From assembly GCF_019649055.1 (NCBI RefSeq), contig NW_026570263.1:558001-622000 (forward strand): 64,000 nucleotides of DNA, given 5' to 3'. Source of the DNA: Paramacrobiotus metropolitanus. Lineage: Eukaryota; Tardigrada; Eutardigrada; Parachela; Macrobiotidae. The notes beneath the pieces were generated by a model. It did not search any database. It was not told the origin of the DNA and saw nothing but the letters and a program-made list of their open reading frames with translations. The stretch's first letter is position 1. The number at the start of each line of letters is the position of its first letter. The translations under genes and the position numbers were made by a program. This document shows, piece after piece, positions 1 to 20,927 of this stretch.

Positions 1-159
1 CACCGTTTTCCGCACTTTTAATCCATTCCGCTCCGTTGAGCAATTTCGCGCATCCGTAATGCGACTTTCATCACAATCCGCTTTGAGAATCGGGTGCGTA
101 TCAAGTACGACTTAGAAATACTGCTTCATCTTTGGAATATGGTGCGTATCAATTGTACG

Positions 160-400
160 ACTTCAAAATGAGATCCAATAAAGGTCATGGAGGGACGTCA
201 ATGAAGACAAGCGTAGTTCGCTTCCTCCCTAGTAAAGGTCATCCTTTGTTGAGATGATCCGTTGAGATGTGCGACTCGTTTTGGGTTAATGGTCCCAAAG
301 GTCATGCGACTTGAATTCCGATACGGTGACTCTATTGGGCAATTGATGATCCCAAAGGTCATCCCACTCGTCAAAACTTCTGTTAAAGGTCATGGAGGAA
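160..400. repeat. AAAGGTCA cluster in 3' UTR of copy 1
   Basis: Five copies of AAAGGTCAT lie on the plus strand at about 183, 234, 297, 354 and 385, antisense to the element. They alternate with phrases such as 'ccctggtaaaggtcat' and 'atggtcccaaaggtcat'. Copy 2 keeps four of them at about 46032-46190. This is the opposite orientation from most copies inside the coding regions. Confidence 0.8.
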
Positions 401-507
401 CTTAGCCGATTTTCTGCGGCTTCAAGCACTTCTTTGCTTGCCCCCCTGGTAAAATTTGCAGTTTGACCTTTCCGTCGCACATCCAACTTCAATATGCCTC
501 GAGCGGC

Positions 508-959
508 CAGAGTGCCGGCAAGTTTACCGTAGCATCTCTGATGGTGCCGGCTAGTTACCGCATTAAATTTACCCCATGAAATTTCCACATTTAATCTTTT
601 ACTCTTGTTCGCCGCCTGTGGCCAATGTTAATACGAGAAATCCGGCTCGATTACCGTAGTTTTTCTCGTTTCACCTTTAACACTGAATCGCTTAAGAAGA
701 GTGCCGGCGCAGTTTACCGTAACAACTCTAATGAGGCCGACTGATTGCCGCATTAAGTTAACCTCATCAATATTCCACCTGTTGTCTTTCTCTTTTTCGC
801 CGCTTGTGGCCCCGTTTCGTATTCAAGAGATCCGGCTTGATTACCGTTGTTTCTCTTGTGCATTTATAACACTGAGTCGCTTAGAGAGGAGAGCCGGCTA
901 ACTGCCGTAACTACTCCCCTTGGGGCCGGCTTTATAGACCGAATCAATTTCAACCCCAA
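508..959 (-). repeat. Tandem covarying hairpin array in 3' UTR (copy 1)
   Basis: Eight stem-loops follow one another. Each has a variable outer stem around a constant core CCGG(C/A/T)-N4/6-(T)(T/G)(A/C)CCG, whose CGG and CCG can pair internally. The outer stems are CAGAG/CTCTG (508-540), ATGG/CCAT (541-577), CGAGAAA/TTTCTCG (634-668), AGAGT/ACTCT (698-729), ATGAGG/CCTCAT (731-767), CAAGAGA/TCTCTTG (824-858), GGAG/CTCC (888-917) and TTGGGG/CCCCAA (920-959). Hairpins come as an adjacent pair plus a single one per roughly 190-bp unit, with a shared spacer containing CGCCGC(C/T)TGTGGCC. Complementary stems with unrelated sequences indicate selection for RNA structure. Function unknown. Confidence 0.85.
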
Positions 960-1145
960 TAGATACTCCACATGATTTCTTTTAGGCAATTCTGTGCTAT
1001 AAACGCTGCAAACAACAAATACACAAATACAGTTTATGTTAACATGTCACGTGTCACGTCCTTTATACAACACCATTTTCATCTTTGTGACGTACCGACA
1101 AATGCCGTAGACGTCCTTTTAATAGTGTGATCCTAAAGGTCAACA

Positions 1146-3887
1146 CTATTCCATTTCATTTGAATCGCCCTCGCCATCTCTCGGCGGGCGTTTCTTAGCG
1201 CTTTCCGGTTGGTTTCGGTCGGAAGTTCGGTCAACTGGTTCCGTCGAGTCAACTTCCATGACCTTTGTCGGGTCAACTTCGCGCTGGCCACGACCTTTCC
1301 CTTGGCGACTGCGCTTAACCGCCTCTAGTCGATGGCGCGCATCATTTTCTTCCAGTCGCAGCCTTCGATTATCAGGGTCATCTGCCAATCGACGCTGCAC
1401 GTCGGCGAGATTATCCCGCAGCTGTTGGTTTCGTATGCCGCGTCGTCCCATCTGGTTAGGCGCACGGTCTGGACGACGGTCACTTTTCTTCACTAAGAAT
1501 TCATCAATGTAAGTTTCGATTCCGTCCACCGGTTCGACGTAGTCGCTTCCCAGAGAATCTTTAATCTTATTAATCCTTTCTTCTACTTGGGATGCGTGGC
1601 GCTGTGTCAAGTTGCCCTTTTCCATCCGTGTCTTACATTTCTTCAGCGCCTTCCGAGCCGTATGCGCTATGCTGATATGTTCCATCGGTTGTCCCAGCTT
1701 GGCGACATGAGCTCGGAAGAACGGTGGAATGTCGTCCTTCATGGTATTAGACACCAATTGATTCTGTGTCTTGTAATGTGCCAGTCTCGCAGCAAAGACC
1801 TTTTGCCCCATCCTTTTTGCGGCATAGTCCTTAGGATCCACCTGTAGTCCTATCGATGCCCTTGCTGCAAGCAACTTGAAAGCTGGATTCACATGTCGCA
1901 AGACAAACTGAGCCACATATTCTTGTCGTTCGGGATAGTCTCTGTAATAGAACTGTGTCATCCCGATTGGGTCAGTTGTATCCAGCGGTACATCCAATAA
2001 ACTCAAATCCACCAGGCTGTGTAGCCCATTCCGTCGGATAGGGAGATAACAATCCCGTACTGAATCGCGGTGGATGAATAACTGACGGAAATGTCCTTGT
2101 TCCACTCCTTGTTTAATCTCTCTCGCATAACCCGAGTCAAGTAGGAATTGGCTCAACTGTCTCAGAATTGTGCCAATTTTGTTGGCTTCAACCGAATCCG
2201 GCTCAAGTCCAAAGTATCGACAAATTTTGACCGTTTGTTCATCAATATCAGTCGTCTTATATTCCATATCGATACTTTCAGGACGTCGGTTGTCAAATCT
2301 GGAGTTCTGTCGCTGATCAGCCCGGCGATGATTATCCGGTTCTCGTTGACCTTCTGGTTCACGTTGTTCTCCTGACTCAGGCTGCAACGGTTCGTTACTC
2401 GCCGGTTGTTCCGGTTGGAGGTCACTATCCAGAATTACATTTCGTCGGTGAGTCACATTCTCTTGAGACGTGGTTTCGACAACTGAGCCAGTGCCTTCCA
2501 TCGCGTCATCTTCTTGTACGGCGCTCACAATTGGATCCACAACGTGAACCACTGACTCCACCCGCTGATACTTTGGAGGTGAATCTTCCCGTTCAGTGCT
2601 TGATGACCTTTTGCTTGCGCCCGAGTCAAAGGTCGCATAAAATGCGGCTCTCTGTTGCCATCTTTTATCCTGTGGGTCAGGCGTTCGATTTCGCGTATGT
2701 TCACGTCTTTTATCCCATGACCTTTCGGGTGTTGACATCCTGACGTTACGATTCCGGAATGCGACTCCCATCGGCACCTGATGCCCTTGCTTTTCAGGCT
2801 CTGTACGGAATGTCTCCGCACGCCGTTTTTCTTCACGTCCTCTCGTCGCCGCCAAAATCTTTGCCGTATCGATTTTCCTTTGAATACTCATTTCTGTAAC
2901 TTCGTCTCCATGGCGCACCCATCCTCTTCCGCCACGGTAATCTCTGTCATGAGAGCGTTCGCGTGACCTTTCGTTGCGGTAGTCACGTGTCCTCTCACGA
3001 GAGTGTTCGCGTGACCTTTCCCTCTGTCGTTCCGAAGTTCGCTCATATTCACGTGAATGTCCGCGTGACCTTTCTTTATGCGGAGGCGATCGTGGCCGTA
3101 TGAAGCCTTCATCCCGTTTGAAGCTTCTGAGTGCTTGCAGTACATCGCTTTCGGTTCGGCGAGATCTACGTAGGTCATCCATACGTCTTTCGACTTCCTT
3201 CTTTATGTAAGGTGCCGGCGCGAACCCGTCTTGAAGTCGTTTCTTCTCCCGCAACAGCATTTTGAATACCTCGTCTGACATAGCAGCTGGATCTTTCGTT
3301 AACGTTTCAATTTGAATGATAAGCGACTGTCGTACGAGTTGCATTTCATCTTCCTTAAGGCTGGCCATGCCCGTGGGTGCAGCTAAACCCGACGTACTGG
3401 GCAACGCCTCTCGTGCGGCCTGTTCACTTGCCCTCTTATTTTCCGCATTAATTTTCGCGCGGAGTTCGTCTTCCATTTGCTGAACTCGCATCTTCTCCTG
3501 GTCCTCTGCGAATTTCTTCCGATACGCGTCTGTATGTGGACACTTCAACGGCTCCAAGGTGTCATCCCAACCCGGTTCGTTGTTCCGGATCGCTTCCCGG
3601 TAGCGATCCTCGAGTAGCATTCGCTCTTCCACTGGGATGCTGCCGTAATTTCTTGCGCTTATCAGATTGCAAACGTCCAAGTTCCCACGTTTGGCTTCCA
3701 TGACCCCAACAAGCGTGACGGTATGTGGGTCTTCCAGCTTGTGAATACAAGTGTAGCAAGGGAATTTCTTGTCAACCTTTTTGTTGTTCCTTAAGCAGTC
3801 CGGACATTTCGGATTGTAGCCCGTAAACTGGTCGATGTCTGCCGCCGTTCCCGTACGTTTAGGAGTGGCTTGACCTTTCTGTGCCAT
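1146..3887 (-). CDS. Retrotransposon ORF3: zinc-ribbon and RS-rich protein, copy 1
   Basis: About 913 residues, using the Met at 3887 (sequence MAQKGQATPK), which matches the start in copy 2; an in-frame Met 10 codons upstream is less likely. Near residues 28-47 there is a C-X2-C-X12-C-X2-C zinc ribbon. Next come a charged helical stretch (about 110-260), an RS/RE-rich segment (about 270-340) full of RERS, HSRE and RTRE repeats, a polar disordered region, and a conserved C-terminal half. No signal peptide or membrane segment is visible, so it is not an envelope protein despite sitting where env would be. The RS segment is partly built from GAAAGGTCAC repeats read as E-R-S. I do not recognise the family. 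The frame is open, in contrast to pol in the same copy, which suggests the ORF is maintained. Confidence 0.8.
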   Translation of the reverse strand: MAQKGQATPKRTGTAADIDQFTGYNPKCPDCLRNNKKVDKKFPCYTCIHKLEDPHTVTLVGVMEAKRGNLDVCNLISARNYGSIPVEERMLLEDRYREAIRNNEPGWDDTLEPLKCPHTDAYRKKFAEDQEKMRVQQMEDELRAKINAENKRASEQAAREALPSTSGLAAPTGMASLKEDEMQLVRQSLIIQIETLTKDPAAMSDEVFKMLLREKKRLQDGFAPAPYIKKEVERRMDDLRRSRRTESDVLQALRSFKRDEGFIRPRSPPHKERSRGHSREYERTSERQRERSREHSRERTRDYRNERSRERSHDRDYRGGRGWVRHGDEVTEMSIQRKIDTAKILAATRGREEKRRAETFRTEPEKQGHQVPMGVAFRNRNVRMSTPERSWDKRREHTRNRTPDPQDKRWQQRAAFYATFDSGASKRSSSTEREDSPPKYQRVESVVHVVDPIVSAVQEDDAMEGTGSVVETTSQENVTHRRNVILDSDLQPEQPASNEPLQPESGEQREPEGQREPDNHRRADQRQNSRFDNRRPESIDMEYKTTDIDEQTVKICRYFGLEPDSVEANKIGTILRQLSQFLLDSGYAREIKQGVEQGHFRQLFIHRDSVRDCYLPIRRNGLHSLVDLSLLDVPLDTTDPIGMTQFYYRDYPERQEYVAQFVLRHVNPAFKLLAARASIGLQVDPKDYAAKRMGQKVFAARLAHYKTQNQLVSNTMKDDIPPFFRAHVAKLGQPMEHISIAHTARKALKKCKTRMEKGNLTQRHASQVEERINKIKDSLGSDYVEPVDGIETYIDEFLVKKSDRRPDRAPNQMGRRGIRNQQLRDNLADVQRRLADDPDNRRLRLEENDARHRLEAVKRSRQGKGRGQREVDPTKVMEVDSTEPVDRTSDRNQPESAKKRPPRDGEGDSNEME

Positions 3888-3917
3888 TTTTCGCTTCAAT
3901 CTGTAATTATAAAACAA

Positions 3918-4225: not shown

Positions 4226-6441
4226 TCACTCGGATTCTTTCGTCGATGGTTTATACGGCTTGAAATCGATTCGGCCATCTGGCTTAATATGAAGCACTTC
4301 GTCCGCGATCAAGGCTTCAACGGCATTCTTAATCCACTCTTTATCGCTTTCAATATTCAAATCTCCCAATTCGTAATTGACGGCCATGAAGTTTGAAAGG
4401 TCATTCCATGACGCTCCATTTGTACCGCCGATGGCGTCCAAAGCCACGTCTGTGATGGCTATCTTCCAAGCCTCCAATTCCATTTTCAATCTGGGCGTTC
4501 GTTCCTGACCCTGTTTCGGAAGGTAGTAGACGACTTTGTTGTCCTTGTTATATTTACATCCCAACTTTCCTTCTTTATAAGCTCGTTTCAAGACTCGTTC
4601 AGTCATGTTAAGTGACGACCTTCCGTTTGAATTTATTGCCACTTGTCTCTTCAGATCTGTACCAAGCATCTCTTTTTCTCGGATGATCTGGAGCGCGTTC
4701 TGGACTTCGTTCCATGTACGATTATTCACGTCCAATGCCGGCCCTAACATGTAATCTGTAGCCTTTGCCGGTGTACCGCTACTTTTCTGGGAGGATGTCG
4801 AGTCCGTTGGGTCAGCTGTCGCTGTCTCGTCGATCCTCAGCTTTGCCAATGATCCTGATGATGACCCCGCCGATTTTGGTTCGGCTGTCTTCTTCTCCTC
4901 CTGTGGCAAAGTCTCTTGACCTTTAAATCGCCGACCGACTTCGATCGTTCCTTCTCAAAGACGTCCTTTAATGGTATGAACAGTGATTTAGAAACACCTG
5001 GCGCGCCGAATCCGCTTCAGCTTCTGCCGCTGCCTTATCCATCGGGAGCACGACCTTTTCTTTCTCCCGTTTATCTGACGTCTCATGACCTTTCGGTTGA
5101 TCTTCTGCGGTAGTTCCCGATGTTTCTTGACCTTTCGACTGTTCACCTTTTTCTGTCGCAGGTCTAGAAGGAGCCGTTGTTGTAGTATCGTCATCACTTC
5201 CCGATTCCGAGTCCATTGGGCCTTTTGTCTTCGATGAAACTGTGACCTTTTCCATATCCTGACTGTCGGACATATTACAGTGGATCTGTCTTTCCGGTGG
5301 TATTAGACCGACTCTCGTGTATCGGATCGGGTGTCCTTTATTTGCGTTTGTCGTGGCAAGGACGTTCTGTTTAATCAACTTTGGCAATGCGCGTTCGGTT
5401 GCCGTGTCGATCTCCTTTATCATTCCATTTCCGTCGTTCCAAACTGCGTTGATATATTGGCTAATCCGATGGCTTGTCGATCCTAACGGGCTTGTCATCC
5501 CTGCGATTGCCCTTTCTACTCGCATTGGGACCGCTTCATTCGGAGTTGTCAGCGCTTTATCCGAACTGGCTGGTCTGAACAACTTGGCCTCATACGAGAA
5601 GCTGGGGTGCTTCTGTATAAGTTTTCCTGCGTTCCGCGCGAATTCCAATACGACGTCGAATTTTTGTTTGGTGAAGCTACGATGTTGTTTCTTCAAATAC
5701 GTCTTCAGGCCTGCTTTAAATTTGGATGTCACCGATGCTGTTCTTATTCGTGTGAAATTCTTTTCAGCTCCGTTGTACGCTCTGATGACTTCATCGACCG
5801 TGTTCAAATTATCATCATCGGGACCATCAAATTCTTCGTCTGAGGTGAAGTCCAGTTCACTCTCTCCATCTGGCTCAGTGTAATTAACCGTCGCTAATGC
5901 ATCGATTTTCGTGACTGTCTTGCCCTTCCCTTTTGTCTTAACGGGTTCGCTCTTTGCTTTTTCCCCTTTATCCAGAGCTTCCGCTAGGCTTCTTGGTTCA
6001 GTGGTTCTTGATCGTGTCGTTTTCGAGTCCGTATGTGACCTTGCACTGACCGTCGAAGTGCTTGGGAAGGCTCGCTTCCGATGCCTCCGATTCACGCGAC
6101 GTCTCCCGTTTCGCTTTTTCGCGAATCTGTTTATCCTTGCGCTCTTTTGGCGTGGATGCGGAGATGACAATGGGGACAGCTTGTTTCACCGCTATGACCT
6201 TTCCTTTGGGCTTTAACGGTTCTGACGTAGCCGAATTAATAACTTTCTTTGAAGTCGTAGGTGTCGATTTCTTTTTCTTCTGTTTGGCTTTCCGCTCGTT
6301 AATTGCTTTCGCTATATCACGGCCCAATTGTTCAGCTTTTGATTTGACCGCTTCTATCTCCTCTTCTCTCTTTTTTATGAGGTCATTCTCATTACCGGTA
6401 ACAGTGCGTGGTTCGAAAAAATTCGGGTCACGCTCTGACAT
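4226..6441 (-). CDS. Pol C-terminal extension, copy 1 (broken by frameshifts)
   Basis: Three overlapping frames (5998-6441, 4968-6170, 4226-4909) correspond to one continuous segment in copy 2, so this copy has at least two 1-bp indels (about 6000-6170 and near 4990). Order: a Lys/Glu-rich coiled region, an acidic ELDFTSDEEFDGPDDDN patch, a conserved helical domain (FTRIRTASVTSKFKAGL onward), a Ser/Asp-rich linker, and two C-terminal modules. Those modules start TWNEVQNAL and SWNDLSNFM and look like an internal duplication of a winged-helix fold (inference from the W-N-[ED]-[VL] start and the alternating helix pattern before a beta-like KVVYYL end). This lies downstream of integrase and is not a standard Ty3/gypsy domain. 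Function unknown. Confidence 0.7.
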
Positions 6442-6442
6442 C

Positions 6443-6811
6443 TCAGCGTCCGTACGCTGTTTCGAAAGGTCATCCTTATCTTCGGTAGCAGTGCGTGGTT
6501 CGAAAAAAGGATTGTTGCAGGTCCTTTTGGAAGTACGCTCTGGTACTTTAGAGAATCGGTTCGTTGTCTTGTTCCAGTGACCTTTCTGCCAAATTACCAG
6601 CCTCCGCGTTCAACTTGATTGTGACTGCTGTTTCGAAATCCTTATCCTCTTTCTTCTTTCTTCCTCTTTTCTTTGTAGATTTGTTTCTTTCCATTTCAGG
6701 TAGCGGAGGTGGTTCAAAGAAAGGTTCTTTTTGAGGAGGTATATTGCGCCCGGCTTATTCCACTTTTTCTTCCCTTTCAGTCGTAATGGCGGATGCCACG
6801 GCTTTAACCGA
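6443..6811 (-). pseudogene. Degraded pol segment between integrase and C-terminal extension
   Basis: Minus-strand reading gives a proline-rich start (EPFFEPPPLPEMERNK), a basic stretch (KKRGRKKKEDKDFETAVTI), then AEAGNLAERSLEQDNEPI, with stops and frame changes between the parts. A FEPR-containing motif recurs here, near 6420 and near 12400. These repeats are the only notable homology between the two flanks of the deletion carried by copy 2, which lacks this segment. Confidence 0.5.
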
Positions 6812-8981
6812 TCAATAAAGTGATTGGATGACCTCCGCTTCGTTTGTTCGCGGGAAGCTAAGAATTTTCCACACTTTATCGTACTTCGACTTGAACCGAC
6901 TGGTTTTCTTTCTTCCCCTGTTTAGTATCTTTTGGAAGTCGTATAAGTACCAAATCGCCCACTTTGAAATTCGGCTCCGATTTTTTCTTATTATAAATTT
7001 CCGCATTTTTCTCATATGCGTCTTTGATGTTGCATCTCGCCACTTCTTCGGCAAAGGTCAAGTTCTTTTTCATGGTCTCCACCCATTCGTCTGGAGTTCC
7101 GTAATCATCGGGTATATTCGTTTTTGTAACCACATCTTCCGGCATTGTCATTTCTCTGCCGTGTAGCATATAGTATGCTGAATATCCCGTTGTGGCGTGC
7201 ACGACTCTGTTCATCGCCGAAATAACATATGGGAGATACTTGTTAAACTTTCGCTCATTTCCCGCTTTTAGGTATTGCGCCAAGCCGTCAGCAATCGTCT
7301 GCATCTGTCTCTCCACTTGACCTTGACCTTCTGGGTGATACGCCGTTCCAAATGTGTGTTTAATTTTAAACACATTGGTGACCTTTGCCAATACTTCGGC
7401 TGTAAAGTGTCGTCCGCGATCCGTATGCAGGATGTGCGGTGCTCCGTGTACCAATATCACGTGCTTCACGAACACTTTAGCGAATTCTTTAGCCGTTGCT
7501 GTTTTCATCGGTACCGCGATCACGTATTTCGTCAGTTGGTCGATAAATACCGCTATGTACTTGTATCCACGTTTCTTCGTCGGTAACAAAGGTCCTTTCA
7601 AGTCAGCATATACTCGGAAGAACGGATGTCCCACTTTAATCTCTTGCAATTTTCCGGGTGGACATTTCCTCGGTGTTTTACGGAACTGACATCCTTGACA
7701 GGCGAGTATGTAATTCTTCACGTCTGTACTCATTCGATCCCAATAATATCGGAGTCTGATCGCTGATAATGTCTTTTCAAATCCCAAATGGCCTGCTGCT
7801 TTCTCATCATGCAATGCGTGGATTATCGCTCTTCGCATTGACAACGGTACGACATATGACCTTTCAAGTTTTCCATTTTTATCTTTTACTCGGTACAATA
7901 TGCCGTTCCACAACTGGTAATGCACTTCGAATTTCGATCTTGTTTCAGCGTCTGGTAGATGTTCCAGTTCATCTATAATCATTGCCAGGTGAGGATCCTT
8001 CAATTGTTTGTTTCGCAATTGTAGATTGGAGTCATCCTCCTCTTCTTCGTCGCCTTGCAGGTTGACGATACGAACTGTGGCCGTACCTAGTTCGTTCCAG
8101 TCTCTGATGACCTTGCAGCGCGGTAACGGTTTGTACCTCTTTTTCGCCTGTTTTGGGAATCTCAACAGTTTGATTGGGCATTCGTTCAACGCTTGTGCCA
8201 CTTTGTCCGTTTCCCAAAGGTCATCTCTATTCTCCGCTCTATCATCAAGTCCCGTGACCTTTCCATTCTGCATTTGAGAGTCCGCGTCAAGTCCGGTGAC
8301 CTTTAAGTCACTAACGGCGGGCAACCAGCTTCTCACTCGGTTCACTTTTGCTTCGTTTTCAGCCGACTCGTTCGCCGTAGCTGAAGTGACCTTTAATCGT
8401 TTCTCCCTCTGTTCCACCATCTGCAGGAACAGCTGTCCAACTTCAATTGCCGGTTCCTTCGTATCAAACTCCTTCTTGTAATCTTCGAAATTCGGAATCT
8501 CATCAAATTCTTCTTCGTGACACGTCGGGCCTTCAATTGGCGCTCTTGATAACGCGTCCGCGTTGTCACAATATTTTCCCGGTTTGTATTCGATTTTAAA
8601 TTGGTGACCTTGTAATGCCATTGCCCATATTGTCAAGCGTGGATTCATTCCAACTTTATTCGTTTCTGACCTAAACAAATTGGTGAGCGCCTGATGATCC
8701 GTCCTTACGGTGAATTCAGCATAATCAATGTACGGCTTGAATTTTCTGACAGCAAACACGACTGCCAGACATTCCCATTCTGTTACACCGTAATTCTTCT
8801 CCGCTCCATGTAGGACACGACTGGCGTACGCGATCGGATGTCCATCTTGTGACAGTACGGCTCCGATTCCCTCTTTGCTCGCGTCGCATTCAATAACGGT
8901 CGGTTTCGCGGGGTCAAACTTTGCCAGTACTGGACCTTCACACAACAACTTCTTCAAACTATTGAACTCTTCTTCATGCAC
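6812..8981 (-). CDS. Pol: RNase H and integrase, copy 1
   Basis: RNase H opens the segment: CDASKEGIGAVLSQ carries the first Asp, TEWECLAVVFAV the Glu and TDHQAL the next Asp. Integrase follows, with an HHCC zinc-binding start (HDEKAAGHLGF ... CQGC) and a catalytic triad of Asp in YADLKGPL (about residue 460), Asp in HTDRGRHF (about 517) and Glu in GQVERQ (about 554). The C-terminal module has NFKVGDLVLIRLPKDTKQGKK. A 1-bp frameshift near 6910 moves the end to another frame finishing at EAEVIQSLY. The N-terminal junction with RT near 8978 is also frameshifted. Domain order is typical Ty3/gypsy. Confidence 0.9.
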
Positions 8982-9702
8982 TGCAGTCCAGTCCTTTTTT
9001 CACGTGTTTATCTTGTCTCAGCAACTCATACAAGTGGCAAGTCTTCTGTGCGTATCCCATTATGAACTTGCGATAATAATTCGCCAGTCCAAGGAATGAC
9101 CTTAACTGCCTTTCTGTTTGAGGCCGTTTGAACTCTGAGACCGCGGTGACCTTTTCCGGGTCCATACGAATTCCGTCCTCGCTGAGTATATGACCCAGAA
9201 ATCCCATTTGTCTCATTCCAAATTCGCATTTCGTTGGCTTAATCGTGAATCCCGCTTCCACCAGACTCATTAAAACATTTCGCAGATTCTGCATGAAAAT
9301 TTCCCAAGTTTTTCCGGCGAAGATCACGTCGTCGATATACCCGAAAACGCAACCCTTTCTTTTCGCTTTCGAAAGTACTTTATCCATACACAATTGAAAC
9401 GTTGCTGGTCCGTTGCATACGCCAAATGGCATTCTTTTAAATCGGTACATTCCATCTTGTGTTACAAAGGTCGTCTTGTTGATTGACGCTGGATCCATTG
9501 GGATCTGCCAGAATCCACTTTGTAAGTCCATTTTTCCGTAATATTTGTTGCCTGCGCACGCGTCGAGCAACTCATCCGGATTTGGTAACGGGTAATTATT
9601 CTTTCTCGTTAGCTTGTTAAGCATGATGTAATTGACGCAAAATCTTGTTCCCATTGTTCCGTCGCCATTTTTCTTTACTGCCAATACGACTGGAAACTCC
9701 AC
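8974..9702 (-). CDS. Pol: reverse transcriptase core, copy 1
   Basis: Contains RFCVNYIMLNKLT, YPLPNPDELLDA, KMDLQSGFWQIP (first catalytic Asp), FKRMPFGVCNGPATFQ and the YIDDV active-site motif near residue 120, followed by GFLGHILSEDGIRMDP and SFLGLANYYRKFI (thumb/connection). These are the ordered RT motifs of Ty3/gypsy elements. The N-terminal part lies in the neighbouring frame (9675-13733) and the C-terminal junction is frameshifted, so RT is split across three frames here. Confidence 0.92.
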   Translation of the reverse strand: MEFPVVLAVKKNGDGTMGTRFCVNYIMLNKLTRKNNYPLPNPDELLDACAGNKYYGKMDLQSGFWQIPMDPASINKTTFVTQDGMYRFKRMPFGVCNGPATFQLCMDKVLSKAKRKGCVFGYIDDVIFAGKTWEIFMQNLRNVLMSLVEAGFTIKPTKCEFGMRQMGFLGHILSEDGIRMDPEKVTAVSEFKRPQTERQLRSFLGLANYYRKFIMGYAQKTCHLYELLRQDKHVKKGLDCSA

Positions 9703-12700: not shown

Positions 12701-13733
12701 ATTCTTTTCGCGTCATCTTTTTCTTTTCGTTTCCCGGTGCCTCTGGTACTGGGATTAGCGTTTTATTAACCATTTGAGCATTTCCCGTCTGTTTTACAAG
12801 TTCGGTGACCTTTCCGACTTGAACTTTGGCGACTGGTTTTGGGTCGTCTTCTTTCTCTTCTTCACCTTCGTTATCCATTAGTACGAATTTCTTTTCCAAG
12901 AAGTCAAATCCCAATAACACTTGTACGTCGTCACACTTCGGTCGGACGTAGAATGAATGTTCGCTAGTCTTTTTCCTTAAGGTCACTGGCGCTACACAGT
13001 AGTGCGTCACCAGGAATCCTGACGTTCCGCTAATTCCATTTATTTTCACCAATCTGTCAGGTGGCAATGGGAGCATGTGGAGTCCATTCTTCTCGCAAAA
13101 CGGTTTGCTGATCAGCGACGTCTCAGCGCCGGTGTCCAACATTGCGTTGACCTTTATGTCTCCCACTTTCACTTCGTGTGTGTACGCTTCAATTCTCTTG
13201 GGCAGTTTTCCATTTTGAATCTTCAAAGTATGAATCTTACATTTCACAGGAATAAGCGATACTGGTCCCGGGTCCATATCGGGAAGCACTTGTCCTTTTG
13301 CTGGAGTGCTATGACCTTTCAATATCTCGCTCAACTTATCAATCCTATGTGGAACGTTAGTCCGAACATCGTAATATTTTCGCGGCTTTTCTTTATTTGT
13401 TCGCTTCTCTGTAGCCATTTTAACACCGGTGACCTTTTCCACATTCTGCACTTGCTCATTTGCTTTTGTGCTATCCATGTGACCTTTAGTCACTTCATTT
13501 ATCGTCTGATGGATCAATTCCTCTTTACGATTTTCATTTCGTTTATCTCTCAGCTTCTCAATGACTTCACTTGTTATTTGGTCAGCTCGCTTCAATTCGT
13601 CTTCTTCACCATCTCTCATCTCCTCTGGTGACCTTTCATATGTGACCATATTATATCCCTTTTCGGTCATCCATTCGATCACTTTCGCGGACACTTCATT
13701 GTTCGTTTTCGTCGGATCGATTTGTGAAGACAT
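9675..13733 (-). CDS. Pol: retropepsin-like protease, acidic linker and RT N-terminus, copy 1
   Basis: An aspartic protease lies near residues 160-300: the active site is MLDTGAETSLIS (about residue 198), with the flap-side VLLGFDFLEKK motif later on. A linker of more than 700 residues follows, rich in Glu, Ser and Lys, with five IPVPEA(P/L) repeats and many ERSP, KVT and KGH triplets encoded by AAAGGTCA. It includes a Cys-rich stretch (CHHGYFEDPC ... CAECCENA) of unknown meaning. The segment ends with GKYFEIVIANHSSKYRIVKK and the start of RT (THVIDTGDAKPVKCNPART), then frameshifts at about 9700. Its own N-terminus follows a 1-bp deletion near 13771 that separates it from the upstream pol frame; copy 2 has one more T there. 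Confidence 0.85.
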   Translation of the reverse strand: MSSQIDPTKTNNEVSAKVIEWMTEKGYNMVTYERSPEEMRDGEEDELKRADQITSEVIEKLRDKRNENRKEELIHQTINEVTKGHMDSTKANEQVQNVEKVTGVKMATEKRTNKEKPRKYYDVRTNVPHRIDKLSEILKGHSTPAKGQVLPDMDPGPVSLIPVKCKIHTLKIQNGKLPKRIEAYTHEVKVGDIKVNAMLDTGAETSLISKPFCEKNGLHMLPLPPDRLVKINGISGTSGFLVTHYCVAPVTLRKKTSEHSFYVRPKCDDVQVLLGFDFLEKKFVLMDNEGEEEKEDDPKPVAKVQVGKVTELVKQTGNAQMVNKTLIPVPEAPGNEKKKMTRKELSPFEQLQMIQQEIEKTLNRTLLAQKGREKVIPVPEAPGMTKVQQEEIIPVPEALETKNENGKVGKVIPVPEALGKEDKRSPATENLERERNSNLFEPRSATQNERLPDKAKEEITERDSQRSPTIERSPTIEEIIATQKEAAVAAKQSLVPDMEWAKPIPVPEALEIKTAKVGKDKKSERLRVLKRIVEEEQMFTGEIRDKALEQLKGHRTEKEPEVIEISSEDKSVTPIECEEDTTVQEQVKPEASQRTLTPEERAGSCHHGYFEDPCRVQPQWECAECCENASQDDPSEWPRCNAASADLKGHAQKKAKSIMRTNEMWKPHIERYHWNRYRTWLSCVESFIIGRGRWLNHWLQRVEKGIQDPLDPVATERRFEREIEEMTEEGEMWEEARVDLFWDFRVNHMYKGEGRTIIFPAGLGTPVYESLEVYYNALKEGNEKAFEKYWKKFKEEIPKFDVKEMRELQVTRKRRSPGLVQKKKVTFAPDPDGVDYPERGGDTWCMYETIPNDEWVTEELMANCIFVGPKRPKGYETVQQDETNKGTVKEAEKEEPVKEIAEGQSNETEESSKSAFDIAQMLTDRGEMWKRFKEEVERISSEQQNPVTEAKNGERSLDNGEEYPPVELTEKPLTSREEINELENSKSDEERSNSDQSERSPTRIRVARSHPRVAARNGRKAKEGDKPLLKNSKAKKLSDSRENKSDLSSEDEGVDERPLEKADKGQATAQEYESSNSDSEWTSSSDNSTTSEDSGVSDLSEQEDLMDLDEDDEVDEEKEKDIKVRRLKVEKARMSKDVIKVYSDQRIKLKPSNCTRVKVKMGKYAPAQNKLMFTPVPQVETEVQPLAGVTDHRGKYFEIVIANHSSKYRIVKKNQLLGYVEPYEHMENVKVNAGTVKNVLEDPEVDETTKAELKKIIENLKLGPDLTQEQKNDVYNAFWEFWKVLPTSKKPYGDVKGVTHVIDTGDAKPVKCNPARTSWTGREFITKHIEEMLAQDVIEPSDAEWSFQSYWQ

Positions 13734-15271
13734 TCCGTCTGTTCGGGCTGGTGACTTGTCATTGGCATCCTTTGCAGTGCCTCCGATAAGTCCCGTGACC
13801 TTTCAACTGCGCTACTCTGTTGCGTTTGCGCCATTTCATTTGACCTTCCTTTCTGTTCATTTTGCGCTAAGTCCTGTGACCTTTCGTTGCGCTTCATGAC
13901 AAATCCGCCACCTGTCAGCTTTTGTATGGGGACTTTTTCTCCATAATTCGGCGGTTTATCCTGTGGTGGAGCATTACGTGAATGATTCCAGTCAGCGAAT
14001 GTCTCCTTATATTCCTCTGGATTGAATACTGGGACTGGGTTCGATGACCTTTGCGCTGGTTTCCCGGTAACCAACTCTTCCAGTCGCTTTCTTTCACATT
14101 GCGTTCGCAACTGTTGCATGTCCCAGTAGTCCTCTTGTGACATTCTCGCTTTCTGCTTTGCTTTCGGCGTCACAGGTATCCACATCCCGTGATTGCCATT
14201 CGGTCTGTAGGCCACTTTTTGCCACTTTTCCTTCTGTTGCAGCGTTATTGCATCTACAAGTGAGTCATCGGAGTTCTGTTGTGCCAATTCGCCATTCTTT
14301 TGCTGCGCTGTTCGCAGTGTCAAGTCTGTTTCTTGACCTTTTAACACGACGCTATCGCCGTGACCTTTCACATTCACACTCGCTCCTTGACCTTTAACTT
14401 GGACTTTTCCAACAGAAGGTGACCTTTCATCTTTACTAATGACAGTGATATTCTGCTTAATCCATTCTTGCCTTATTCGCTTCTCTTCTTCGTCTTCTGA
14501 ACGATTCCAAAACTTTGGCTTTGGTTCCCCGTAACAATCGCAACTTGGCTCCTTCGCCTTATCGTTTTCTGCCAAAAATTTCCGGAATTTCGCGTGTTGC
14601 TCATTTTCCTCTTGCGCAGTATCGTTCTGCGGTGGTGAATTTTGGTCTTTCGACTTGCCATTTATCTGTTTCCGGAACCATTCGTGGTGCATTTCCACTT
14701 CTTCTGCTGTATCGGTTTGCGGTTTCTTTTGATTTAACAGCGCTTGTCGAATCTTGGCATTACGTAATGCACGACGTTCAGCTAACACTTTCTCGCTGCA
14801 GTACGGTGACCTTTCATTTTGCTGCACTTTTTGCAGTGTCGCGCTACCGTCACGACAATTCCCACTCGCAGTACCATTCTGCGGTGACCTTTGGTCCCGT
14901 TGCGCGTTTCCACTCGCAGTACCATTCTGCGGTGACCTTTTATCCACTTGGATGTTTCCACTCACAGTGCCATTCTGCGGTGACCTTTCACTTTGTGACG
15001 GTATCCCTATAACCGTTCCATTTCCTCTTTGCGATGACGGCATCCATATAGCCGTTTCTCTTTGCTGTGGCGGCATCCATCTAGCCGTTTCTTGTGGTTG
15101 CGGCATCCATATAGCCGGTCCACTTTGCTTTTTCGCTGACGGCATCCATATAGCCGTTGCAGTGGTCACGTTCACTGCAGTACCATTCTGCAGTGGTGAC
15201 CTTTCCCTTTTATCCGGTGGTTTAGGGTCGGGTCGATCAGTAGGCTCACCGGTGCCTACTGATCTTGCCCG
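13679..15271 (-). CDS. Pol N-terminal region reached by -1 frameshift, copy 1
   Basis: The frame is open from the slippery site at 15271-15277 and is -1 relative to the end of gag. The first Met (15175) is some 30 codons inside, so an independent start is not needed. The N-terminus has four to five W-M-P repeats (AIWMPSAKK, AIWMPQPQE, ARWMPPQQRE, AIWMPSSQRG) and then repeats of RSPQNGTASGN. The rest is polar and probably disordered, with a conserved GNHGMWIPVTPKAKQKARMS block. A 1-bp deletion near 13771 ends the frame early (KCPRK stop). The frame is uninterrupted in copy 2. Confidence 0.8.
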   Translation of the reverse strand, partial: RARSVGTGEPTDRPDPKPPDKRERSPLQNGTAVNVTTATAIWMPSAKKQSGPAIWMPQPQETARWMPPQQRETAIWMPSSQRGNGTVIGIPSQSERSPQNGTVSGNIQVDKRSPQNGTASGNAQRDQRSPQNGTASGNCRDGSATLQKVQQNERSPYCSEKVLAERRALRNAKIRQALLNQKKPQTDTAEEVEMHHEWFRKQINGKSKDQNSPPQNDTAQEENEQHAKFRKFLAENDKAKEPSCDCYGEPKPKFWNRSEDEEEKRIRQEWIKQNITVISKDERSPSVGKVQVKGQGASVNVKGHGDSVVLKGQETDLTLRTAQQKNGELAQQNSDDSLVDAITLQQKEKWQKVAYRPNGNHGMWIPVTPKAKQKARMSQEDYWDMQQLRTQCERKRLEELVTGKPAQRSSNPVPVFNPEEYKETFADWNHSRNAPPQDKPPNYGEKVPIQKLTGGGFVMKRNERSQDLAQNEQKGRSNEMAQTQQSSAVERSRDLSEALQRMPMTSHQPEQTECLHKSIRRKRTMKCPRK

Positions 15272-15277: not shown

Positions 15278-18200
15278 TGAACCGGCGCTCCACCTTGTTG
15301 CGCGCCCTGCACATGTCCTTGTGTTTGCTCGTTCACCGGGCCACCTCCGTTTGGCTGGCCACCACCCTGTTGGTAGTTTCCTTGGCCGCCGCCATTGTTC
15401 TGGCCTCCTCTGAAGTTTCCGCGGCCAAAGCCTCTGTTTCTTCCTCTGAAGCCGCCGCGACCGAAGCCACCGCCGCGATAGCCGCCGCCTTGGCCGCCCC
15501 CATTTCCATTTCCATAGTTTCCGTTACCTTGCTGATTCTGGAAGTTCGCTTTCGCCTGGTACCATTGCGTAATCAGGTCATATCCATTTGCGACCGCTTG
15601 GCGCCAACCACCGAGCCCGCGCAGTCGTTGCCACTCGTTGAAGGCAAACAGGTTTGGGTTCTGTTCCGGTGGTGTGTTGGCGAATTTGCATCCCTGGGTC
15701 TGGTGGTTGCCGTACATACAGTATTGGCACATCTGAACGTTGTTCGCCACCCATCCGTCAATCATTTGGAACTTGAATTCTGTCCGTGACCCTTGATTCT
15801 GCTGGTAGTTCTGGTTTCCTCTATTTGGCTGAAAGTTGCCTTGACCTTGACCTTGATTCTGAAAGTTTCCTTGGCCTCCATTCCAGTTTCCATTCCCATA
15901 TCCATTTCCGCCAAAGTTACCGTTACCCCTCCTTGTTGTGGTAACCCGACATTCATGGGGACCATATTCTGTGGTGCAGGTGGGGCCACATTCTGTGGAG
16001 CCACATTCTGGGCTACTGGTCTCACTTGAGCTGCTGCCTGTATCGCCGCCACCATCGCGTATGTTATCGGTTGCCCCGTCTGACTGTCGATAAAGGTCAC
16101 CTTTTCGGTGACCTCTCTAACCGGAGTCTCCACGCGGTACTCAACCGGCTGCTGGGCTGGCGCAGCTGCCATTCTCTGTTGCGGCACGTTTTCAACTTGA
16201 CCTTGGCGGATCGTCACGTAATCCTGGGTGCGTTGACCTTTTGGCGCCTTGTATTTCTCTTCGCCAGTGGCCCAATGTCGGAAGAAGTCTTTCACGTCTG
16301 TTGGCGTCTTGCACTTCTGTATGCGCAATGCCTTGTAGAGTTCGTTATCCCCTCTACATCCTTCAATTAGGAAACCCACAGCTTGTTTCTCTGTGATGAT
16401 CCGTTTTGCTTTAAATCGCATCATCGCCTGGTAATACTGATCAAGCGATTCTTTCCCGAGTTCGAATTTCCTTGCATAGGCCTCACGTAAGCCTAAGACT
16501 TCTTCGTCTCTATCGCCATATTCATCTTTGAATTTCTCCATCCATTCAGTTATTGAATATTCAATTCCGTCTTCTGCTGCGATGTCTTTTTCGCCTTCGA
16601 ACCAAGTTTTAGCAGGACCTTTCACCGCACTAGCAATCTCAATCATAATTTGGTCGTCCGTCAGCTGGTACGTCCTTTGGGTTTCTTTTACCAACCGTGT
16701 CCATCCACTCACAGTGTCGCGGCTGCCGTCAAAGGTCATGAGGGGTGTTTTCCGAGCCATCGAATTGAGTGCCTTTGTTAATTGTACCGCTGTGTTGGCT
16801 GCTCTCTGGTCCTCGTCTTCTTCGCTACTCTCATCATCATTGTGAGTTCGTTGCGCCTTCCCATAACGAGACTTCCTTGGACGTTCCTGCCGGCTGGGGG
16901 GTCTGTCTCGTCGTCCTTCGTCGATAAACACATTCGTTTCAATGTGCGGGGGAAATTGTGAAGGATCACCTCGACTCATATGCGGGTAACTTTCCGAAGG
17001 TGGCTCTTTGTCGTCTTTGACCTTTTCGCCATCTCTTTCATTTTTAACACTCCCCTTACCGGTGCCGGTTCGTAGCGGCATCTCAAAGTGGAAGCTTTTG
17101 CCCGTGCCCGTTTCATGCGCCTTGCTGTAACTGGGCGGAGGGGACTCCACTGTTGCCGTTTTAACTCCGTATTGTAGGAGTTGTTCATCTTTGTGCTTGT
17201 TAGACGTCTGGAGCGCCTTGTTCTCATCTTCCAATCGTTTAGTTCTCAGTTGAAGTTCTTCTCTTTCCCTCTTTAGATCAGAATTTTCCAGGTTGACCTT
17301 TCGTAAGTGTTCCTGCAGTTTAAAAGACTCCTGCTGGGTGACCTTTTCATTTTCCCGTTCCATTTTTTTGATGTGCTCGACCAGCTCACTCGTTTCTTTT
17401 TCGAGTTGCTGATACTGCCCAGCGGCTGATCTCAGCTGATCCTTGATTGCGATCAACTCATCATCTTTTGCCAATGCTGTGGTGGTCATCTCGACGAGGT
17501 CAGTGTTCAACTTTGCAATTTCCTGACTCTTTTGAGCGACCTGTTGTTGCCACTCTTTGTCCTTCAACTCCAATGTTGTGACCATCGTGTCCAGTCGCCG
17601 TGCTTCCTTCTGCCATTTGAGTCCTTCCTTAGTGACCTTTTCAATGTCTTCTGTGACCTTTTCGTTCTCTTGGTTGACCTTTTTGATTTCTTCTTTCAGG
17701 CGTTCTCCTTCAGTAGCTGTGATGTCTCTTGCCTCTCGCATCGCTTTGATTGCATCATTGCGCAACTTCTCAGCTTCGTCCGCCCGTTCCTGATGACCTT
17801 TCGATTCTAGTTGCAGAGTACTGACAGCCTCCTCCCGTAGCTTCAGGTCATTCCTTAGTTTGAACGTCTCCGTTGCCAATGTCGTTAACCGTTGTGTGAC
17901 CTCTGCGAATTTGGTCGCGTATTCGTCCCGTTTAGTTTCAGCTTCAGTGACCTTTTGACGCAACTGGTCACACTCGTCCTTCAATTCGGCTAAGTGTCGT
18001 GACCTTTCAGCTGATTCTTCTGACATACTCTCGTTCAACTCGCTAACCGCAAGATGACCTTCCATTTCTCTGTCATCTACCATTTTGAGGTACTCTTCAG
18101 CGAGTTCTTTTTGACGCTCGTATTTAATCTTCCATTCATCCGCTGCGCTTTCCAAGTCGGCCTGTTGTTGCTCCAGTTCATAGATACGAGCATCCAGAGT

Positions 18201-19055
18201 TCCTATCCGATTTTGATATTCCTGTTTCCTTTTCGTCACCAGGCCTTCCTTGGCTTCGAGTTCCTCTTCCAGCTCCTTCACGCGTCTCTTCAGAGTTGAC
18301 GTGGGACTGTTCGGTGATGACGGTCTAACATTGATGACCTTCCCAGACTGTGTCCTTTCAATAAGGTGCTCGGGTATGTCCTTAAACGGTGTCATCCCTT
18401 CGGCATGGTCAGCTTCTTTCATCGCGGTCTGGAAGGACATATTCATTGTCGCTTCATCATCCGTGAAGTATGACTCGTTCGATTCGTCTGAGACCATCGG
18501 AGTTGCCCAAAGGTCATCACCGACAGTCTTATCGTGCAGTGAAAGGTCATCCAATCCCAGTTCAGCCAATTCCATTTCTGTGACCTTTGTCCTGTCAGCT
18601 TCCGACTGAACCAGGTTTACATTTTTATCCTGTTCAGTAGTTCCGATAGTGGTAGCATCCGACTGTGATGCTCCGACTAGTTCCACTCCTTTCCCTGTGG
18701 GTATTTCCTCCCCGGTGACCTTTTTCTGGTTCATCGGATTGCCTCTCGCCGTAGACGCGGGAGTTTCCTTTCCGTCACCGCTGGAGCTCTCTTCGTTCTG
18801 TATAGCTCCAAGCGCCACTTGGTATGTGTTATCACTGCCTTTGCTGTCCTTTCTTGCAAAGGTCACAGCCGCTCGGGTCTGTCTATCATGTCCGACTGGA
18901 CGCGCGAGCGACTTGTATTCCTTCTTATAAGGATCAACTGTGCCTTGTTGTGATCCCCGGGAGCTCCTGCTTCCCTGACTGCTAGTGGATGTCGGTTCCT
19001 CTTTGTCCATGTTGATCGTATAACTTGGACGCTCCTGCCAATTGTTCTCACACAA
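15256..19055 (-). CDS. Gag polyprotein, copy 1 (one frameshift near 15935)
   Basis: About 1,260 residues if the frameshift is ignored. The N-terminal 230 residues are polar and acidic (SDESNESYFTDDEATMNMSF). Residues about 240-650 form a long heptad-rich coiled coil. After a Ser/Pro linker comes a retrotransposon gag domain (about 770-960: MTFDGSRDTVSGWTRLV, KTWFEGEKD, FKDEYGDRDEEVLGLREAY, SLDQYYQAM). Then follow a Gln/Asn/Gly-rich segment, a CCHC knuckle C-X2-C-X4-H-X4-C (CQYCMYGNHQTQGC) and an RGG/FGRG-rich C-terminus. A 1-bp indel near 15935 throws the first frame into a spurious end at 15762; the knuckle region continues in the frame 15256-15765. The start at 19055 (MCENNWQERPSY) is shared with copy 2. 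A coiled coil this long is unusual for a gag. Confidence 0.85.
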
Positions 19056-19079: not shown

Positions 19080-19700
19080 TGTCCTAAAGGTCACTTTGTG
19101 CCTCGAAATTTTTCTAAGTCCTTATTAAAGGTCACTTTTCGACTGAGAAATTTTGACTAAGTCCCGTTCTAAAGGTCACTTTTTCGTTAAAAAGTTCGAG
19201 AGATTTGCCCTAAGGATCACTTTCGGACAAAACTTCGAAACGGCTTTTACGGTTCCAAACACGTTAGTGAATGAAATCCTACAGCTGCTGATATCGCTGT
19301 ACCACTATTCAGTTCAATTTCGCTTCGATAAAGGTCACCGTTCGTCAATTCCGGATCTTAAAGGTCACTCGAAAGATCATTTTGATCAGTTAGAACTTTT
19401 CGGTAAAGGTCACTTTCCGATGTCAAAGGTCAACTTCTGATCTCAAAGGTCACTTTCCTGCTCGTCTCAACTCAAAAGGTTACTTCTCAACTCGATTCAA
19501 GTTAAAAGGTCACTTTCCAGCTCAATTTTAATCAAAGGTCACTTTTCCTTTGTCTCAACTCAAAAGGTCACTTCTCAACTCGATTTAAGCTAAAAGGTCA
19601 CTTTCTAGCTCAATTAACTCAAAGGTCACTTTTCCTTTGTTTCAACTCAAAAGGTCACTTCTCAACTCAATTCAAGTTAAAAGGTCACTTTCCCGCTCAA
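19080..19700. repeat. AAAGGTCAC minisatellite array in leader, copy 1
   Basis: About twenty AAAGGTCAC sites on the plus strand, antisense to the element, are spaced roughly 20-60 bp apart within AT-rich phrases such as CTCAATTCAAGTTAAAAGG. Around 19480-19690 an approximately 117-bp block containing three sites is tandemly repeated, so this array is longer than in copy 2. It directly precedes the gag start. AGGTCA is the nuclear-receptor half-site, and AAAGGTCA matches the extended monomer/DR1 half-site form. Confidence 0.85.
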
Positions 19701-19995: not shown

Positions 19996-20077
19996 ATTAA
20001 TAACGGTTTTCTACCTGTTAACCGTCCGTTCCACGGGGAAAACGATCCAGATGATCCAATTTCTTCTCCACTGTCCG

Positions 20078-20420
20078 TTCCCGCGCTGCCGCCGGTTTTA
20101 CCGTAACGGTGGTGCCGCACGCTTTTGATAGGTTACTGTGCCGGCTGACTGCCGTAGCAACAGTAGTGGTACGCTCTACACCAGTTTGGTGGAGTCTGAT
20201 CTGTCTTTTCCGTACGCCCCTTTCGGCGTTTCGGCGCTTCTGCCCCACGGCTTAGGATTCGCTGAATCCTTGCCGAGTACCAGTGACACCAGTGTAGGTC
20301 TTCGCTGAAGACTCTACACCGAGGAACACTGGCGACTGCTCTCTTGAACTCTTGCACAGTCCCTGCAACAGTACAGGTCTTCGCTGAAGACGCTGCACCG
20401 AAAACAAGGCTGGAAATCCA
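20078..20420 (-). repeat. Leader hairpins of copy 1
   Basis: Two units near 20085-20165 have the same CCGG...ACCG/TGCCG core as the 3' UTR array; the clearest has stem TACTGT/ACAGTA at 20134-20165. Further on are three hairpins with a TTCGCTGAA apex: AGGATTC/GAATCCT at about 20248-20265, GTGTAGGTCTTC/GAAGAC-CTACAC at about 20291-20320, and GTACAGGTCTTC/GAAGAC-CTGCAC at about 20371-20398. In copy 2 the last stem has changed on both sides (GTACGG/CCGTAC). They lie in the RNA leader between primer site and gag, where packaging and dimerisation signals are found in retroelements. Confidence 0.7.
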
Positions 20421-20560
20421 CGTCCGATGAGGAACTTGCACCGCTTGTGGTGTTGCGCTTTGCTGTGGTACAGACCTGTGCCTTACTGGTCGGGTTTCAC
20501 ATCAGATGACAGGCCAACTTTGCCTGACACAAATCAAATCAAATTCAGAGAACCGCTGTC

Positions 20561-20573
20561 GGCTCTGCTACCA
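20561..20573 (-). other. Primer binding site (initiator tRNA-Met), copy 1
   Basis: In element sense TGGTAGCAGAGCC starts directly after the 5' LTR. TGGTAGCAGAG is complementary to the 3' end of eukaryotic initiator tRNA-Met including CCA; the next base differs from the common sequence. This fixes both the LTR boundary and the element's orientation. Confidence 0.85.
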
Positions 20574-20927
20574 TCTAATGCTAGATCCAGCAGTGATCCA
20601 GATACGGAGACCTAAACGGAATAGATCCCGTGGAGTGAGCTATGCGATAAGTATAGCGAACTACGCGGAATCGCGAAACGTCGCACCGCTAATAGCTGAC
20701 TTTTAATAATATTGAAAATTCCGACAACAGAAAATCAACACTGATCGGCGCAGCTCGATCGTAAAGCGTGGAGCCCATTCAACAGCGTGCAACGCTGTGC
20801 AGCACGTGCTATGCCGCGCCCACTAACAAAACACAAGCCAATCAGAAGCGAGACACAACACAGGCCATAATCCAAAGGCGTAGCGCCTAGCGCCACTGAC
20901 GTGAACGCTAGTGATCCCGGTCTCACA
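20574..20927 (-). repeat. 5' LTR of copy 1
   Basis: 354 bp, beginning TGTGAGACC and ending CATTAGA in element sense, directly followed by the primer site. It contains an E-box CACGTG (GCACGTGC) flanked by tandem GTGCAACGCTGTGC-like repeats, a CCAAT-type ATTGGCTTG and a TTCAATATTATTAAAAG region. It is only about 80% similar to the copy 2 LTRs by eye, although the adjacent leader at 19690-20120 is nearly identical between copies. Confidence 0.85.

Follow-up and report, generated by a model that had tools for sequence, protein, structure and literature searches.

A nine-base site of nuclear-receptor type, conserved throughout the body of a tardigrade LTR retrotransposon, may attract a host regulatory protein

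Results

Two copies of a Gypsy-type element lie in the window

We analysed a window of 64,000 nucleotides from Paramacrobiotus metropolitanus that holds two copies of a Gypsy-type LTR retrotransposon, both on the minus strand, with duplicated F-box and other host genes between them. Copy 1 is cut at its 3′ end by the start of the window, so that its 3′ LTR lies outside, and copy 2 has lost the part corresponding to window positions 5970-12382 of copy 1. The features are listed below, where motif denotes the octamer AAAGGTCA, or TGACCTTT when read in the opposite orientation.

1..20927, minus strand: copy 1 of the retrotransposon, recognised by alignment to copy 2 and by Pfam RT, RNase H, integrase and protease matches
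180..1142, minus strand: 3′ UTR motif group of copy 1, seven motifs (six TGACCTTT and one AAAGGTCA on the sense strand)
1146..3917, minus strand: ORF3, 923 aa, RS-rich, with an N-terminal CX2CX12CX2C; seven sense motifs
4226..6170, minus strand: two linker-histone-like ORFs (4968-6170 and 4226-4909), together with three sense motifs and one antisense motif
6876..8981, minus strand: RNase H and integrase ORF; five sense and two antisense motifs
8974..9702, minus strand: reverse transcriptase ORF piece (RVT_1, 5.5e-27); one sense motif, the matched RT core being motif-free
9675..13733, minus strand: protease-containing ORF (Pfam aspartyl protease); 17 sense and four antisense motifs
13679..15175, minus strand: linker ORF; 11 sense motifs
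15762..19055, minus strand: gag-like ORF, 1097 aa; 12 sense and five antisense motifs
19080..19690, minus strand: leader motif array of copy 1; 15 motifs, all TGACCTTT on the element sense strand
20571..20927, minus strand: 5′ LTR of copy 1, 86% identical to the copy 2 LTR; no motif
45214..60105, minus strand: copy 2 of this family, lacking RT, RNase H and integrase; 72 motifs in its body
45214..45569, minus strand: 3′ LTR of copy 2; no motif
59749..60105, minus strand: 5′ LTR of copy 2; no motif

The element has the hallmarks of Ty3/Gypsy retrotransposons, namely the LTR pair, primer site and target-site duplication of copy 2, and the Pfam domain order protease, RT, RNase H, integrase in copy 1. 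The LTRs of copy 2 are 99.7% identical, its flanks have GGTG in common (the target-site duplication), and TGGTAGCAGAGC, directly after the 5′ LTR, reads as a tRNA-type primer site. Several of the 120 relatives listed for the integrase ORF carry Ty3-I or Tf2 polyprotein names, and the closest named relatives of ORF3 (96% identity) and of the integrase ORF (95%) both belong to P. metropolitanus, in whose 169.8 Mb assembly the window is found on contig C43. The ORF at 15762..19055 is probably gag, judging by its position; it has no Pfam gag match. The Linker_histone matches of the ORFs at 4968-6170 and 4226-4909 are weak and fall below the curated cut-off (E 0.11 and 0.084), as does that of the fused region in copy 2 (E 5.9e-4).

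An octamer saturates the body of the element

The whole window contains 182 exact occurrences of AAAGGTCA/TGACCTTT, compared with a mean of 2.82 and a maximum of 13 in 100 dinucleotide shuffles of the window. Most lie in the element: 98 on either strand of the copy 1 body (1-20570; mean 0.98, maximum 4 in 200 dinucleotide shuffles) and 72 in the copy 2 body (45570-59748; mean 0.76, maximum 3 in 200). The earlier note, made by eye, had claimed that this octamer saturates the element, and the two counts bear this out against the roughly one copy expected in each body. Its estimates of 60-70 copies in the ORFs, about 20 in the leader and several in the 3′ UTR of copy 1 come close to the exact split: eight ORFs account for 68 motifs (56 sense, 12 antisense), the leader for 15 and the 3′ UTR for seven, and the other eight lie between ORFs.

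Saturation had been ascribed to the whole of 1..20927. This is right for the body, whereas the LTR of copy 1 and the next ~880 bp hold no motif. No LTR in the window has a motif, and for the motif-free stretch formed by the LTR of copy 1 and ~880 bp of adjoining leader 6.2 motifs would be expected at average density (P = 0.002). The catalytic domain cores are poor in motifs too: their 1572 bp hold two, where 8.0 would be expected (P = 0.013). The sites occupy tolerated places: the UTRs and mostly the tolerant linker parts of the ORFs. Their mean spacing of ~201 bp in copy 1 and ~183 bp in copy 2 would correspond to about one site per nucleosome.

The earlier note had named two outcomes that would undermine its claim, an equal density of the octamer in host genes and similar counts after codon-preserving shuffling, and neither was observed (for the shuffles, see below). 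Motif density is ~5 per kb in the element and about ten-fold lower in the host DNA of the window, against a whole-genome average of 0.25 per kb (42,562 AAAGGTCA in 169.8 Mb, compared with 15,522 of the reversed word). Thirty nuclear-receptor loci were at this average (24 motifs in 94.6 kb, overlaps not removed), and 36 kb of arbitrarily chosen genomic DNA held four motifs (0.11 per kb). The host DNA between the copies (20928-45213) contains 12, more than in its shuffles (mean 0.87, maximum 4); six of these represent one repeated, conserved F-box coding context of the YERSL type, and the remaining six still exceed the shuffle mean. No motif occurs in 60106-64000.

Nine bases are nearly frozen between the two copies

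In both copies together the octamer is followed by C in 99 cases, T in 38 and A in 33, and never by G (n = 170); in copy 1, G is absent after the octamer in every ORF phase and in either orientation. This ban is not absolute across loci, as G follows 1 of 25 octamers in the same-family locus L128, 2 of 27 in L166, 2 of 26 in L168 and 1 of 17 in L188. In host DNA it follows 8 of 24 octamers in the 30 receptor loci and two of four in the arbitrary 36 kb. Genome-wide, AAAGGTCAG makes up 4042 of the 42,562 octamers, compared with 2427 of 15,522 for the reversed words.

Alignment of the copies revealed that the octamer and the base after it hardly change. With copy 1 as reference, there were 2 changes in 551 comparisons at columns 0-7 of the motif and 1 in 69 at column 8, and the flanks, binned up to 40 bp on both sides, were changed in 8-13%; with copy 2 as reference the values were 6 of 567, 0 of 71 and 7-12%. 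The nine bases, AAAGGTCA and its next base, are therefore nearly frozen, with 0.4-1.1% changed against ~9% around them. When a motif in one copy sufficed for its columns to be counted, 8 of 584 differed, compared with 1181 of 13,258 elsewhere. Copy 2 has an intact counterpart for 65 of the 73 copy 1 motifs that lie in aligned blocks; region-matched 8-mers would give 39.4, and 65 was not reached in any of 20,000 resamplings. Of the 14 unmatched entries (eight in copy 1, six in copy 2), true substitutions account for six. Two motifs displaced by an alignment gap (4917, 17675) make up another four, and the last four face an insertion or deletion (354, 14933, 19563, 19593).

The constraint extends to positions that are silent in the protein. 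Four-fold degenerate third positions were changed in 1 of 54 cases inside motifs and 250 of 1269 outside, and other synonymous third positions in 1 of 76 and 248 of 1752, respectively. We compared other words with at least eight aligned occurrences (654 6-mers, 48 7-mers and two 8-mers, motif-overlapping words left out) and none was conserved to a comparable degree; AAAGGTCA alone stands out, with 65 of 67 ungapped occurrences kept. A neutral process, such as motif-directed conversion, slippage or oligonucleotide bias, could in principle spread or protect a word in this way, and the leader (in part ~29-30 bp tandem units in copy 1) and part of the 3′ UTR do carry tandem duplications. However, sequence only a few bases away diverges normally, conservation has a 9-bp edge, the flanks of different motifs have little sequence in common and no other tested word behaves alike, which makes such a process very improbable.

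The sites ignore reading frame and strand

The 56 sense motifs in the ORFs of copy 1 are spread over phases 0, 1 and 2 as 13, 22 and 21, and the three phases encode KGH/KGQ, [EKQ]RSx and xKVx (mostly T), respectively. In 1000 synonymous-codon shuffles, made within each ORF with the protein kept, we obtained a mean of 5.55 sense motifs (maximum 12) against the 56 observed, and 0.40 antisense motifs (maximum 4) against 12; whole-codon shuffles gave 0.79 and 0.09. Selection on the repeated peptides would account for the abundance of ERSP, KGH and KVT in the ORFs, but one nucleotide word yields three unrelated peptides, recurs in the UTRs and is about ten-fold rarer after shuffles that leave the protein intact. 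A contrast is provided by six viral-contig loci with a repeated octamer (among 120), five of which keep essentially one frame and one strand, the sixth, L076, having its octamer in two frames. Peptide-level selection is refuted by the frame distribution and the frozen four-fold sites, and we give it practically no credence.

A role in RNA is suggested by the way strands are partitioned in copy 1, where 21 of 22 UTR motifs are antisense and 56 of 68 ORF motifs are sense. The coding form AAAGGUCA and the form in the leader and 3′ UTR, UGACCUUU, might pair with each other, or bind Gag or another protein, in folding, packaging or stability. However, codon composition alone favours the sense orientation by ~9:1, so that the ORF bias of 56:12 is below this prediction and needs no RNA explanation, and antisense motifs within ORFs are far more frequent than in the shuffles. 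The exclusion of G and acceptance of A as next base in both orientations is not predicted by pairing, and conservation ends sharply at nine bases. The RNA platform and the packaging mark that the earlier note had offered beside a DNA enhancer or binding platform are disfavoured, since both orientations are enriched under the same flanking-base rule, and we regard an RNA function as unlikely. Together, the use of all three frames and both strands and the frozen columns argue for selection on a 9-bp site of double-stranded-DNA type and not on peptides or composition.

The octamer resembles a monomeric NR4A site

A census of single mismatches in copy 1 indicates which bases matter. The first A is tolerant (C 7, G 6 and T 3, against ~1.9 expected in all), with 16 of 114 AAGGTCA carrying another base there. 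At the second and third A together, six single changes were counted against ~3.8 expected, beside 98 exact octamers, and the excess at positions 5-7 is small (at most 5 against 0.7). Paired half-sites are scarce: no inverted or everted pairs were found within 8-10 bp, no AGGTCA pairs at spacings of 1-8 in copy 1, and only two direct pairs in copy 1, both directly adjacent (spacing 0). In copy 1 motifs come no closer to each other than 18 bp and in copy 2 no closer than 21 bp (each P ~0.007 under uniform placement), though L184 has a spacing of 15 bp. This lack of pairs, the two adjacent direct ones apart, and the spacing minimum point to a monomer site.

The earlier note had recognised a site of nuclear-receptor type across the element and not in the LTR alone; the distribution supports this, the LTR in fact having none. 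The receptor groups it named, HNF4, COUP/RXR and ERR/FTZ-F1, fit less well. DR1 pairs are absent, and CAAGGTCA, which we take to be the ERR/FTZ-F1 form of the site, occurs seven times in copy 1 against 98 AAAGGTCA. The octamer has both A's directly before AGGTCA, the arrangement of the NBRE, and its preference for C as the next base fits NR4A binding profiles. NR4A was not among the groups named. As a monomer site, AAAGGTCA is the NBRE bound by NR4A receptors (PMC4777543).

The genome encodes an NR4A receptor on contig C45 (loci L153 and L144), where the recovered gene stretches comprise a 26-residue piece as well as RTVQKGSKYVC...QFCRYQKCLAVGMVK, followed by RTDSLKGRRGRLPTKPK. The closest solved relatives of its DNA-binding domain (DBD) are NR4A1/NGFI-B (133.5 bits), the best outside NR4A being RXR (108.7), and an A-box, RTDSLKGRRGRLP, lies downstream of the DBD at the same locus. 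As judged from sequence, the most likely binder would be this host NR4A (HR38-type) nuclear receptor. The genome has other nuclear receptors (its 63 zf-C4 matches include many single exons), which makes the assignment likely, not proven.

Alternatively, the DNA sites could serve a VANC-like protein encoded by the element itself, for example by ORF3, through its N-terminal CX2CX12CX2C, or by the linker-histone-like ORFs, with the match to the NBRE a coincidence. The clade does have extra ORFs beyond gag-pol and weak linker-histone-like matches, and there is a precedent in Arabidopsis, where the element-encoded VANC21 is reported to bind arrays of a 9-base motif within the element that encodes it (PMC5735166). 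Against this, the site equals the NBRE at all eight positions, and the scanned ORFs contain no sequence-specific DNA-binding domain above the Pfam cut-off; the structure models are weak (pLDDT 48 for ORF3) and the ORF3 fold search returned only short helical matches, so the lack of such a domain is not a strong argument. We consider an element-encoded binder doubtful.

Further copies and related families keep the sites

The earlier note had proposed searching the genome for other carriers, and this search uncovered further copies, and families ~25% diverged, that hold most of the aligned sites. The integrase ORF gave 68 listed matches in its own genome, 85-100% identical, of which eight were taken as loci. 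In the seven besides the window, 89 of 92 motifs are kept and 3 of 736 motif columns are changed, compared with 3-8% elsewhere. Three more loci of the same family, found by their array pattern, keep 14 of 17 (L174), 19 of 19 (L176) and 21 of 26 motifs (L177), and L181, ~20% diverged, keeps 12 of 14, with 3 of 112 motif columns changed. In the ~25% diverged pieces L159, L184, L186, L187 and L188 (aligned parts 226-1790 bp, L186 and L187 overlapping; L168 has no motif in its aligned part), 22 of 27 motifs persist and 4 of 214 motif columns are changed, against 22-26% elsewhere. The open frames of the divergent pieces, too, have motifs in more than one phase; the density of 5-8 motifs per kb in these is biased upwards because they were picked by array pattern.

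At the protein level, ten ORF3 proteins of other copies, which are not independent, differ at 5 of 174 motif-encoded residues and at 909 of 6995 others. Motif-type peptides are present to some extent in P0011, a 40% identical ORF3 relative, and show no excess in P0013, a distant integrase relative (49% identical). Triple same-strand arrays number 1520 genome-wide, compared with none for the reversed pattern. On contigs C1 and C2, eight of nine listed rve integrase matches have no listed array within 50 kb and the ninth is ~14 kb from one, positions having been compared by eye and the rve search having scored 150 of 1154 candidates. Arrays outside elements were seen in a histidine-rich KGH-repeat ORF in L182 and in L172, which appears minisatellite-like by eye. 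Since related families in this genome are rich in the word as well, it is no peculiarity of one element, and the array looks like a trait of an element clade, not of all Gypsy elements.

Discussion

Comparison with known systems

VANDAL elements are plant DNA transposons, host genes with known NBREs carry one or a few of them, and the Su(Hw) insulator of Drosophila gypsy comprises a dozen or so sites confined to a single leader segment downstream of the 5′ LTR. Like gypsy, the tardigrade element is an LTR retrotransposon with repeated sites for what would be a host zinc-finger protein, but its sites spread through the coding sequence. The likeness to the NBRE of NR4A (Nur77/NGFI-B, Nurr1, HR38) lies in AAAGGTCA being read as a monomer site (PMC4777543) and in the presence of an NR4A gene; the difference is the ~100 candidate sites per element predicted from sequence.

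The closest parallel is VANDAL21 with VANC21, for which PMC5735166 and PMC10398659 describe a mobile element with a dense 9-base motif in one-orientation, partly tandemly repeated arrays, a density thought to matter, and related families. The VANDAL21 motif is reported to be mainly noncoding, its binder to be element-encoded and its target repeats to diverge fast (PMC5735166, PMC10398659). In contrast, the tardigrade element is an animal LTR retrotransposon with sites in all three ORF frames, their positions are kept across ~25% divergence where alignable, and the motif equals a host receptor site. The short motif at high density is common to both, given the octamer counts of the two copies and the genome-wide arrays, and we infer by analogy that the tardigrade element may work like the plant VANC/VANDAL anti-silencing arrays. 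The earlier statement that such an element is undescribed agrees with the literature searched as far as sites throughout an LTR element are concerned, but VANDAL/VANC is a precedent for transposable elements accumulating arrays of a short motif.

A proposed distributed platform for a host factor

We propose that the element body forms a distributed platform of ~100 monomeric candidate sites, (A)AAGGTCA and then C, T or A. They would be bound by a factor that recognises a specific sequence in double-stranded DNA, most likely the host NR4A receptor of HR38 type, and maintained by purifying selection at the DNA level. With the factor recruited along its whole length, an integrated copy could remain open or available for transcription. 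The effect, whether anti-silencing or that of an internal enhancer, would act in cis on every copy, with transcription possibly driven from inside. Retention of the sites in the pol-deleted copy 2 agrees with action in cis on their own DNA. The NR4A assignment predicts DBD binding to AAAGGTCAC and weaker binding to AAAGGTCAG. This platform, with host NR4A keeping the provirus open, is the best explanation of the sequence data, and we rate its chance of being correct slightly above even. The DNA enhancer or binding platform is also the best reading among those in the earlier note.

A bolder version holds that the clade overwrote its own coding sequence, in three frames, with a host receptor site, and that the provirus, covered by the host factor between leader and 3′ UTR, escapes silencing. 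We put this forward tentatively, at somewhat under even chances, and the same holds for its component that the anti-silencing binder is a captured host factor and not one encoded by the element. Conversely, the sites could benefit the host by marking elements for silencing or pairing, or in a chromosome-structural role. Strong conservation would also follow if copies lacking the sites were not tolerated, which is inference only, but selection through the element's own spread explains it more simply, and a host benefit appears highly unlikely.

Several observations fit a DNA platform poorly. The one-orientation bias of the UTR motifs is not predicted by it, and tandem duplication explains part of this bias. 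The LTR and the ~880 bp after it are free of motifs. Selection is also stronger than a simple dosage model suggests, given that it acts on each of ~100 sites that look redundant. Further points against it are the occasional G after the octamer in other loci, the small excess of mismatched forms at positions 5-7 and the motifs of the host stretch between the copies.

Implications

The element is an example of unusual clarity, in which a site of transcription-factor type is selected in coding sequence regardless of frame, with near-absolute constraint on a 9-bp footprint at ~100 places in one element, and makes testable the question of why a retrotransposon needs so many sites in its body while its LTR has none. 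The sequence evidence suggests that the element may lure a host regulatory protein along its whole length. If NR4A binds, an animal retrotransposon would have co-opted a ligand-independent host receptor along its entire body, as an animal counterpart of the plant anti-silencing arrays. For tardigrade biology the element would then be a built-in reporter of NR4A activity, present in many copies per genome.

Motif orientation and octamer occurrences

Within copy 1 of the Gypsy-type LTR retrotransposon, 21 of the 22 motif octamers in the leader (19080-19690) and the 3' UTR (180-1142) are antisense, whereas only 12/68 are antisense in the ORFs, so that the prevailing orientation of the untranslated regions is the reverse of that in the coding frames.

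A second octamer, AAATGGAA, occurs 15 times in copy 1, 13 times in copy 2 and not at all in the host stretch, and its conservation between the two copies shows no significant gain over background. Host F-box paralogues have a sequence in common, within a conserved YERSL-type coding context:

23031, 25908, 31624, 32396, 38092 and 41478: AAAGGTCAC in F-box paralogues

Elsewhere in the genome, locus L182 (contig C1, about 2.086-2.089 Mb), picked up by its motif-array pattern, carries a 660-aa histidine-rich open frame with KGHHGH repeats. These repeats are a source of AAAGGTCA at the peptide level and are unrelated to the elements.

Coding content of the elements

The following frames were annotated in the elements:

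1146-3917: ORF3 of copy 1, with CX2CX12CX2C at the N-terminus and an RS-rich stretch
4226-6170 and 50019-51584: linker-histone-like (winged-helix) ORFs 3' of integrase in the element, weak similarity

All 11 ORF3 homologues among the matches listed bear the name of the same species, Paramacrobiotus metropolitanus. The linker-histone match of the fused copy 2 region (E 5.9e-4) falls below the curated cut-off. Adjoining the 5' LTR of copy 1, an ORF (20971-22155) with zinc-knuckle-like cysteines is possibly ORF1 of another retroelement.

Copy 2 (45214-60105) is missing the RT/RNase H/integrase region, yet retains long open frames and a 99.7% identical LTR pair, a combination that fits a recently mobilised non-autonomous derivative and matches what is expected of one.
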